A stretch of 18,112 bases of DNA from the NCBI GenBank assembly GCA_025354075.1, contig JANXNO010000336.1, forward strand, positions 1 through 18,112. Direction: 5' to 3'. The notes under the pieces are model-generated. The model was not told the DNA's origin. It ran no database searches and worked only from the letters and a program-made list of their open reading frames with translations. Made by a program: the position numbers and the translations under genes. Of this stretch, positions 458 to 13,491 are shown in pieces (the stretch's first letter is position 1; the number at the start of each line of letters is the position of its first letter). The DNA is from Burkholderiales bacterium (GTDB taxonomy: Bacteria > Pseudomonadota > Gammaproteobacteria > Burkholderiales > Casimicrobiaceae).

Positions 458-1336
458 ATGGCTGGCTCAAAAGAGATTAGAACCAAGATCAAGAGCGTGC
501 AAAACACGCGCAAGATCACCAAGGCAATGGAGATGGTCGCCGCATCGAAAATGCGCAAAGCGCAGGAACGCATGCGCGCCGCCCGTCCCTACGCGGATAA
601 AATCCGCAACGTCGCCGCACACATGGCGTCGGCCAATCCCGAGTACCGCCATCCGTTTCTCGTGAAGCGCGACGCGGTGAAAAACGCGGGCATGATCGTG
701 GTGACAACGGACAAGGGCTTGTGCGGTGGTTTGAATACCAACGTGCTTCGCCTCGTGGTTGCCAAGTTCAAGGAATTCGATGCCTCTGGCGTCAAAGTTC
801 AAGTGACAGCCGTCGGCAACAAGGGTTTCGGCTTCATGAATCGCCTCGGCGCCAAACTCGTGTCGCACGTGATCGGCTTGGGCGATACGCCGCATCTTGA
901 AAAGCTTATCGGTGCGGTGAAGATTCAGCTCGACGCCTACGAAAAAGGCGAAGTGGATGTGGTGTACCTTGCGTACACCAAGTTCATCAACACGATGAAA
1001 CAGGAGACCGTGGTTGAGCAATTGCTGCCACTGACCGCCGACAAGTTCGCACAATCCGCCGCCGAGAAGCAGGCGTATGGCTGGGACTACATCTACGAGC
1101 CCGACGCGCAAACCGTAGTGGACGAATTGCTCGTCCGTTACGTTGAGGCCCTCGTGTATCAGGCGGTTGCCGAGAATATGGCTTCCGAACAATCGGCGCG
1201 TATGGTGGCGATGAAATCAGCGTCCGATAACGCCAAGAGTGTTATCGGCGAGCTGCAACTGTCGTACAACAAAGCGCGGCAGGCTGCGATTACCAAAGAA
1301 CTCTCCGAGATCGTCGGCGGCGCAGCCGCTGTTTGA
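458..1336 (+). CDS. atpG: ATP synthase F1 subunit gamma
   Basis: Gamma is the central rotor shaft of F1. Its coiled N- and C-terminal helices turn inside the alpha3-beta3 ring and couple proton flow to catalysis. The 292-residue product has the usual length. It begins with the family signature [20 protein letters not shown] and continues through the N-terminal coil ([15 protein letters not shown]). The conserved [11 protein letters not shown] segment is near residues 83-93, and it ends in the C-terminal helix with [18 protein letters not shown]. The ATG at 458 is the only sensible start because the signature begins there. The ribosome-binding site is weak, with only a purine run (GAAAG) upstream. 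It is 43 bases upstream of the atpD start. No lesions are seen. Confidence 0.98.
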
Positions 1337-1355: not shown

Positions 1356-2810
<1,455 letters not shown>

Positions 2811-2850
2811 TCGCATCGCCGCTAGTAAGGCGGCAGCAGGAGTAACGACT

Positions 2851-3249
2851 ATGACCGACAAGCTTCCAGACCACGATTTGTTCGATTTCGGGGGATCTTT
2901 TTTCCCATCCGACAGCGTTGTCGCGTTCTTCAACAGCGAGGCTGATGCCAACGCGGTTAAGGCTGAAATCAATACCAAGCTGCCTGCAGCGCGGTGTGAA
3001 GTGTTCAGCCCGAAGAAGGTTCACGAGTGGGCGTCCGACGGTCTGGCTAACGCGGGCTTCATCGCCTCACTCGGCTACGGCATAAAAATCGTTGAAAAGC
3101 ACGAAGAACTGTCAAAAGCAGGTAAGTGGTCGATCATCGCGCATGTGCCCGGCGAGTCCGGCACCGAGATCGCGATGGCGGCCATTCGGAAAAAGCCATT
3201 TTTTCAGGCCAACAAATACAACACGCTCACCGTTGAAGACCTGAGCTAG
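2851..3249 (+). CDS. unrecognised 132-residue protein encoded between atpD and atpC
   Basis: I cannot name this product. It is a clear gene: ATG at 2851 with AGGAG at 2838-2842, same strand as the operon, 40 bases after atpD and 10 bases before atpC. The protein is small, soluble and has no signal peptide or membrane segment. It reads as alternating strands and helices: a strand (SVVAFF, about residues 22-27), a helix (EADANAVKAEINTKL), a strand with EVFSP, a Gly-rich stretch (LANAGFIASLGYGI), then KWSIIAHVP as another strand, a helix, and a tail ending Y-N-T-L-T-V-E-D-L. This pattern loosely recalls small alpha/beta stress-protein-like families that end in a Y-x-x-L-x-[IV]-E-[DE]-L motif; that resemblance is from memory. 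Position suggests co-expression with F1, so assembly, stability or regulation is possible but unproven. Confidence 0.85.
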   Translation: MTDKLPDHDLFDFGGSFFPSDSVVAFFNSEADANAVKAEINTKLPAARCEVFSPKKVHEWASDGLANAGFIASLGYGIKIVEKHEELSKAGKWSIIAHVPGESGTEIAMAAIRKKPFFQANKYNTLTVEDLS

Positions 3250-3259
3250 ATAGATTTAT

Positions 3260-3673
3260 ATGTCCACTATTCACGTCGATGTCGTCAGCGCAGAATCCTT
3301 GATCTTCTCAGGGGAAGCCAAGTTTGTTGCACTTCCTGGTGAAGGCGGTGAGCTGGGCATTCTGCCTAAGCACACTCCGTTGATCACCCGCATCAAACCG
3401 GGTGCTGTGCGTATCGAAAAAGCCGACGGCACGGAGGAATTCGTGTTCGTGGCAGGTGGCATCCTCGAAGTTCAGCCGAACGTCGTCACGGTGCTCGCAG
3501 ATACCGCCATTCGCGGCAAAGACCTCGACGAGGCCAAAGCCGAAGAAGCCAAGAAGCGAGCCGAGGAAGCATTGCGCAATCAGGACGCCTCTATGGATTA
3601 CGCCGTCGCTCAGGCCGAACTCGTTTCAGCGGTGGCACAATTGGCTGCGATACGGAAACTGCGCGCGAGGTGA
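3260..3673 (+). CDS. atpC: ATP synthase F1 subunit epsilon
   Basis: Epsilon binds gamma at the foot of the central stalk, and its C-terminal helices can inhibit ATP hydrolysis. The product has 137 residues, the standard length. The N-terminal beta-sandwich is recognisable from [38 protein letters not shown], followed by the GAVRI and [19 protein letters not shown] strands. The C-terminal helical hairpin ([13 protein letters not shown] and onward to LAAIRKLR) is complete. The ATG at 3260 has no convincing Shine-Dalgarno sequence and lies only 10 bases after the stop of the preceding gene. Its translation is therefore probably coupled to that extra gene. It is the last gene of the operon; a terminator follows. 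Confidence 0.97.
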
Positions 3674-3690
3674 TTTCTCGGCGCATATTA

Positions 3691-3718
3691 AAAAAAGGCG
3701 ATTCTGGTCGCCTTTTTT
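3691..3718 (+). terminator. rho-independent terminator of the atp operon
   Basis: An 11-bp stem (3691-3701 with 3708-3718) has a 6-base loop TTCTGG. The GC-rich top (GGCGA/TCGCC) sits on an A6/T6 base, so the descending arm supplies the U-tract. It lies 18 bases after the atpC stop. The matching A-tract means it could also work on the opposite strand. Confidence 0.92.
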
Positions 3719-3742
3719 ATTGGTTGCGTGTTGCATCTGTCT

Positions 3743-12880: not shown

Positions 12881-13105
12881 ATGCACACCTTAAAACTCAC
12901 TCAGATTGGTAACTCCGTCGGGGTGGTGTTGCCGCGGGAAATTCTCGCGCGACTCGGCGTCGAAAAGGGCGATACGCTTTTCGTTAGTGAGTCACCGGAC
13001 GGCCTGCGGCTCGTCCGCACAGATCCGGAGTTTGAGGCGCAGATGAAGGCCGCTCGTGACGTAATGAAGAAACGCCGTGCGGTTCTCAAAGAGCTGGCGA
13101 AGTGA
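12881..13105 (+). CDS. AbrB/MazE-type antitoxin
   Basis: This 74-residue DNA-binding antitoxin neutralises the toxin encoded next to it and probably represses the operon. The SpoVT-AbrB swapped-hairpin domain fills residues 3-47, with the typical LTQIGNSVGVVLPREILARLGVEKGDTL. The tail, residues 48-74, is highly charged (DPEFEAQMKAARDVMKKRRAVLKEL) and likely helical; this is where such antitoxins bind and block their toxin. The start is well supported: AGGAG at 12871-12875, five bases before the ATG. The stop overlaps the toxin start by 4 bases (GTGA), the usual arrangement for fixing antitoxin to toxin ratio by coupled translation. The 16-bp palindrome at 12825 is the likely operator. Confidence 0.93.
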   Translation: MHTLKLTQIGNSVGVVLPREILARLGVEKGDTLFVSESPDGLRLVRTDPEFEAQMKAARDVMKKRRAVLKELAK

Positions 13106-13491
13106 GCCAGTGGGTCTGGCTGCGTGAAGACGTACTTTATGCGGTTCACGATGCCCAGCTTGCAGAGCATGGCGGTTTGACTGGCGTCCGTGACCACGGC
13201 CTGTTTACTTCGGCGCTGGCACGGCCACAAAACGCAGCTGCTTACGAATCGCCTGATCACGCAGAGCTGGCCGCAGCATACGGCTATGGCATCGCACGAA
13301 ATCATCCCTTTGTTGACGGTAACGAGCGCACTGCGTTTGTCGCTGTTGAACTGTTCCTGCTACTGAACGGTTACGAGCTTGTTGCCAACGATACGGCTTG
13401 CGTTCTCACCATGCTCTCCGTCGCGGCAGGCGAACTCGACGAAGTCGCCTTCGCGGCGTGGATTCGCACGCACAGCGCACGCATAGCCTGA
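13102..13491 (+). CDS. Doc-type toxin of the Fic/Doc fold
   Basis: Doc of phage P1 is a kinase that phosphorylates and inactivates elongation factor Tu; related death-on-curing proteins share the Fic fold. This 129-residue product has Doc length (about 126). The active-site motif is HPFVDGNERTAF at residues 68-79, compared with the Doc consensus HxFx(D/N)(A/G)NKR: His68, Phe70, Asp72, Asn74 and Arg76 are kept, while the usual Lys is Glu75. The N-terminal part LTGVRDHGLFTSALARPQN, near residue 26, is also characteristic of the family. It starts with GTG inside the antitoxin stop. It ends 21 bases before the convergent phosphatase gene. Pairing Doc with an AbrB-type rather than a Phd-type antitoxin is a known but less classical combination. 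Confidence 0.93.
   Translation: MSQWVWLREDVLYAVHDAQLAEHGGLTGVRDHGLFTSALARPQNAAAYESPDHAELAAAYGYGIARNHPFVDGNERTAFVAVELFLLLNGYELVANDTACVLTMLSVAAGELDEVAFAAWIRTHSARIA

Follow-up and report, generated by a model that had tools for sequence, protein, structure and literature searches.

The atp operon of Rhodobacter blasticus reportedly carries a gene, gene X, between the genes for the gamma and beta subunits, i.e. an extra gene inside the F1 cluster. The extra gene described here lies at a different junction, that between atpD and atpC, and it resembles gene X in being an additional gene within the cluster. Further precedents for extra genes in atp operons are found in the accessible text of two papers (PMC5376962, PMC4383579). 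The operons of N-type ATPases contain atpQ and atpR, genes that are absent from the usual F-type operon and of which atpQ is described in the accessible text as being of unknown function (PMC5376962). These are, like the gene described here, non-standard genes inside an atp operon; however, the same accessible text describes atpQ as encoding a putative membrane protein and as part of a second, rearranged operon (PMC5376962). Similarly, atp1/CGL160 has an auxiliary role and is arranged with ATP synthase genes in an operon-like manner, but its product is a thylakoid membrane protein according to the accessible text (PMC4383579). Finally, the alphaproteobacterial zeta subunit is described in the accessible text of two papers as a small protein acting on F1, i.e. 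with the kind of role suspected for the extra gene (PMC8039183, PMC10469736), but no zeta profile is among the Pfam matches of the extra protein. Among the open-licence papers listed by our searches, none deals with a gene at the atpD-atpC junction.

The extra gene and its slot in the atp operon

The window, i.e. the whole stretch of 18,112 nucleotides that was analysed, has the gene order A-G-D-extra-C. The end of atpA (43-324, a frame named from its sequence) precedes open reading frames on the + strand for the F1 gamma subunit (atpG, 458..1336; Pfam ATP-synt), the F1 beta subunit (atpD, 1380..2810; Pfam ATP-synt_ab), the extra protein (2851..3249; 132 amino acids, ATG to TAG) and the F1 epsilon subunit (atpC, 3260..3673; Pfam ATP-synt_DE_N and ATP-synt_DE). 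The locus L005 has a full atpA and a gene order identical to that of the window. The observation that started this work, a gene of 132 codons inserted on the + strand 40 and 10 bases from its neighbours, therefore holds, and so does the statement that atpD and atpC are normally adjacent, as 27 of the 30 junctions read have no intervening gene.

Between the stop codon of atpD (2808-2810) and the extra gene are 40 bases (2808..2850 with the stop codon, + strand) that contain a small, GC-rich hairpin, which on folding is not clearly special (z -1.58; 16 of 200 shuffles fold equally well). AGGAG at 2838..2842 (+ strand), 8 bases before the ATG, probably serves the extra gene as its ribosome-binding site. 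The earlier note called this site strong; the motif and its spacing agree with that, but the duplex energy does not, as 11% of random 18-mers reach its value of -6.9 kcal/mol (drawn from the window in this and all other controls for duplex energies). The 10-base spacer to atpC (3250..3259, + strand) has no clear ribosome-binding site by sequence or duplex energy, and the mRNA structure across both junctions is unremarkable (z 0.65 and 0.57). On the 3' side of atpC, a hairpin followed by a T run (AAAAAAAGGCGA-TTCTGG-TCGCCTTTTTTA; 3690..3719, + strand) was recognised by eye as a probable intrinsic terminator, which would place the extra gene within the transcription unit; it is absent from the output of a computational scan. 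A promoter scan gave 0 sites against 0.5 expected and is little informative.

The extra gene is real and under selection as a protein. A protein search (E<=1) returned 35 relatives with E-values of 1.2e-77 to 3.8e-34, 31 of these are full-length with identities of 67-94%, and 48 of the 134 alignment columns are invariant among 32 sequences. Pairwise comparison of the three genome copies gave 17/18/58, 17/17/59 and 9/7/59 differences at codon positions 1/2/3. Because 35 proteins match and the differences concentrate at codon position 3, the reading frame is genuine and not a product of chance. The dN/dS values of the extra gene (0.065, 0.080 and 0.033; rough, since dS is >1.5) compare with 0.075, 0.050 and 0.012 for atpC and 0.079, 0.087 and 0.006 for atpD in the same comparisons. 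Codon usage was considered as a sign of expression, and the atp genes and the other window genes show no contrast.

Distribution of the gene and its protein family

The extra gene is present in three of the 17 genomes of the genus (G000, G001 and G015) and in the identical three among the 64 genomes of the taxonomic family; a broader profile gave the same result. atpC is present in 58 of 60 relatives, and 30 atpD-atpC junctions were read, half of them within the genus. Three of these 15 have the extra gene between atpD and atpC, five have 9-13 bases (G005, G010, G011, G014 and G016) and seven have 115-142 bases (G002, G003, G006, G007, G008, G009 and G013). The 15 junctions read outside the genus are 15-86 bases long, and none has the extra gene. 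Thus, one genus has three states of one junction (nothing, a hairpin spacer and a gene), offering a ready comparison of epsilon translation with upstream content.

Four of the long-gap junctions were folded and form long hairpins with z of -2.0 to -2.9 (L008:1383-1488, L015:1386-1490, L017:362-480 and L009:575-690). The hairpin element of G002 has matches at the atpD-atpC junction in five genomes, in four other places and, as a short piece, in G014; at the threshold used, its copy number is not high. In the G014 assembly, atpC occurs on two contigs. The gap to atpD is 9 bases on one of them (C503); on the other (C83), 22 bases separate atpC from the end of a 32-base piece of the hairpin element. 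It is possible that the two contigs reflect mixed strains or two operons.

In an rpoB tree, the three carriers form one clade with support of 94/95, just below the star of the tool. This tree is based on the 13 of 17 genus genomes with an rpoB match; it includes G012, the junction of which was unread, and is without G007, G013, G014 and G004. Because the carriers form one rpoB clade, a single gain in its ancestor is the simplest account, but it is not proven, as the carriers do not group together in the atpD tree, which does not resolve the question (one clade is not rejected, p-AU 0.385) and the non-carrier G007 is nearest to the window by AtpC identity (92%, as opposed to 87-88% for the carriers G001 and G015).

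The product had been called unrecognised, and it remains without a family in Pfam, NCBIfam and PHROGs. No credible known family emerged from searches of Pfam, NCBIfam and PDB sequences; the last of seven PDB rows, "ATP synthase subunit b" at E 0.86, was taken as chance. The structure model predicts a small alpha/beta protein, in line with the initial description, and its putative fold looks ferredoxin-like; this fold, that of PII, CutA1 and BMC shell proteins, has beta-alpha-beta twice. The best 50 matches listed per fold search include no epsilon or zeta, which excludes nothing. The Pfam profiles of ATP synthase epsilon and zeta are unmatched by the window protein and by 66 family members. 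Likewise, the PII profile is absent from the matches of the window protein (Pfam, E<=1) and from the 15 families matched by the 66 members at E<=0.5. RRM_1 is not among the matches of the window protein; within E<=0.5, four of the 66 members match it, the best with an E-value of 0.0067.

Judged by its sequence, the extra protein belongs to a large beta/gammaproteobacterial family that is uncharacterised in the libraries searched and within which it forms a divergent branch, and its placement between atpD and atpC was not found in print among open-licence papers. A joint profile search gave 1787 family proteins at E<=0.001, and the close branch is set off from the rest: among the best 120 of these, no full-length identity lies between 67% (79% for fragments) and 34%. 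With one distant member as query, 117 proteins were retrieved. A profile built from close homologues (A1) detected five other genomes among 399 of the order, and one of 245 in another family; the five distant members matched by A1 align from positions 7-15 up to 130-131, with E-values of 2.1e-14 to 5.1e-6. P0029 as query added five further genomes among 369 of the class, and its own source genome, in which it lies on a 2.7-Mb contig, was not found among the 399 order genomes, the 369 of the class or those of two other families (5 and 245). By tblastn with the window protein, eight of 13 distant loci were recovered at E<=0.01 (best for L061, 3.9e-16; L056, 8.1e-15; and L036, 1.7e-12); the five missed (L040, L057, L058, L060 and L062) rest on the profile or on P0029. 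Residues G15, F17, P19, D32, A33, G75, V81, L87, G91, Y123, E129 and D130 are invariant or nearly so across the family. Where source names are given, members are called hypothetical or RNA-binding protein (Xylophilus, Variovorax, Rhodoferax, Ramlibacter, Polaromonas and others). The close branch has sub-branches, one of which holds all three genome copies; these copies may themselves be members of some of the clusters P0001-P0031. The finding also offers an entry point to a family of uncharacterised proteins that numbers well over a thousand. A phage origin was also considered and rejected: an A1 scan of viral contigs gave 41 pattern stretches and no relative, and PHROGs had no match for three proteins.

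The best comparison is with the 134-amino-acid proteins of Xylophilus, Variovorax, Polaromonas, Rhodoferax and kin (for example P0036, P0043 and P0058), which are alike in length and share with the extra protein an FxP near residue 18 and a Y...EDL tail, while identity is about 18-34%. The two groups differ in their surroundings. The three close copies with a readable setting, i.e. the window copy and both genus copies, all lie between atpD and atpC and none elsewhere. By contrast, tblastn detected no atpG, atpD or atpC in the flanks of distant members at any of 13 places in 11 genomes (L036-L040 and L055-L062; flanks of <=1.5 kb on each side, shorter in L058, L061 and L062). The earlier note had proposed counting how often homologues lie in this slot, and the count divides: 3/3 for the readable close copies and 0/13 near F1 genes for the distant ones.

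Pfam was used to name 10 neighbouring proteins at seven of the 13 distant loci and gave PCMT, AhpC/TSA, DsbA-like, photolyase, sigma-54 activator, ACP synthase III and SpoVR, as well as two iron-sulphur proteins read as SdhB; one neighbour was without match. L037 and L039 adjoin Kef-like antiporters (by eye). In L056, L057 and L058, from another family of the class, the relatives are convergent with an iron-sulphur protein gene (Pfam for L056 and L058 only) that we read as sdhB, and a photolyase lies on the other side in two of the three. The recurrent sdhB-like neighbour may hint at the role of the family.

Possible functions of the extra gene and its product

Based on these data, we suggest that the extra gene encodes a soluble member of a dispersed family that became lodged in the atp operon and is kept there by selection, perhaps also relaying ribosomes to atpC; we give this reading a probability of roughly 0.55. 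In this model, the ancestor of the carrier clade would have gained a family copy at the atpD-atpC junction, a site that is variable in the genus. The gene would be transcribed together with the atp operon and translated from its AGGAG site. The job of the protein would probably be a general cellular one, as in the stand-alone relatives, and not that of a part of F1, while its position in the operon would link the amount made to growth and respiration. Initiation of epsilon would probably be aided by ribosomes that come off the extra gene; in relatives without the gene, they would come off atpD. All three readable close copies are in the atp operon and have been retained there across a deep split, which counts against reading the gene as a passenger; such retention is more than a mere passenger need show.

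Alternatively, the extra protein could be a dedicated accessory of F1Fo that binds F1 through beta, gamma or epsilon and aids assembly or restrains ATP hydrolysis, with the slot before atpC setting its dose relative to epsilon. The shared slot of the three readable close copies, its retention over a deep split, the invariant columns and a dN/dS within the range of atpC would all fit such a role, and atpQ, as a non-subunit gene in the N-type atp operon, is a precedent in the accessible text of PMC5376962. However, none of the 13 distant members adjoins F1 genes and 12 of the 15 genus junctions do without the gene. Moreover, no AtpD site separates carriers from non-carriers (14 sequences, two partial) and a single AtpC site does so, the last residue (15 sequences). 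The role in F1 assembly or inhibition that had initially been raised thus finds no backing in the subunits; we regard a dedicated F1 role as possible but unlikely, as no support for it emerged. The AtpD loop after GNDFYHEM, at 21 letters, is longer in the window than in G001 (L005; HEMEESKVLDKVAM), and both carry the extra gene. A composite reading, which we hold to be distinctly improbable, is that a family member recruited into the slot between beta and epsilon both binds F1 and, with ribosomes moving on to atpC, sets the level of epsilon via its own synthesis, i.e. acts as a lineage-specific regulator forming a paired brake with epsilon.

Slightly more doubtful still is the idea that the product matters little and that the gene is kept by selection as a well-translated open frame, from which ribosomes pass to atpC, holding epsilon in a set proportion to beta. 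Hand-over to epsilon, which is also part of the favoured reading above, is suggested because atpC lacks a clear site and, in the three carriers, the gap between the extra gene and the atpC start is 10, 14 or 15 bases. For the atp operon of E. coli, coupling has been reported (Hellmuth 1991, as cited in the accessible text of PMC12548453). Against the idea stands that amino acids are conserved, not the frame alone, and that atpC directly follows atpD in the short-gap non-carriers. Upstream of atpC in the window, the duplex energy is -2.7 kcal/mol, a value reached by 56% of random 18-mers, so that the absence of a clear Shine-Dalgarno site of its own, stated at the outset, is borne out. The site energies are -1.6 to -2.7 in the three carriers, -0.7 to -3.7 in the five short-gap non-carriers and -0.9 to -5.6, i.e. 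somewhat better, in the seven long-gap non-carriers; as 38% of random 18-mers attain even -4.0, real sites hardly stand out from random sequence by duplex energy. In independent pairs, the link between gap and site strength agrees in three of four with none opposed (sign test, p 0.25), and a Mann-Whitney p of 0.018 for the same relation was not relied upon because it ignores relatedness. The earlier note had suggested that atpC translation may depend on the extra gene; the lack of a clear atpC site speaks for this, but the five short-gap non-carriers lack one likewise. Because of these five, any coupling that exists probably predates the extra gene and is probably inherited. There is thus a hint, and no more, that atpC may be translated on the heels of whichever gene precedes it, with the extra gene taking over from atpD.

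Lastly, a chance insertion of a recent, foreign and functionless gene on its way to loss would fit the presence in just three of 64 taxonomic-family genomes and the GC content of 54%, slightly below the 57-61% of ten other window genes, but it is largely disfavoured by the purifying selection evident from dN/dS, by a GC3 of 68% inside the 63-77% of the other window genes and by the identical site in genomes with 82-83% protein identity, and we consider it very improbable.

Elsewhere in the window, at 12881-13491, an AbrB-like frame of 74 amino acids overlaps a Fic/Doc-like frame of 129 amino acids with HPFVDGNERTA, an arrangement that, with both frames named from their sequences, resembles a toxin-antitoxin pair.
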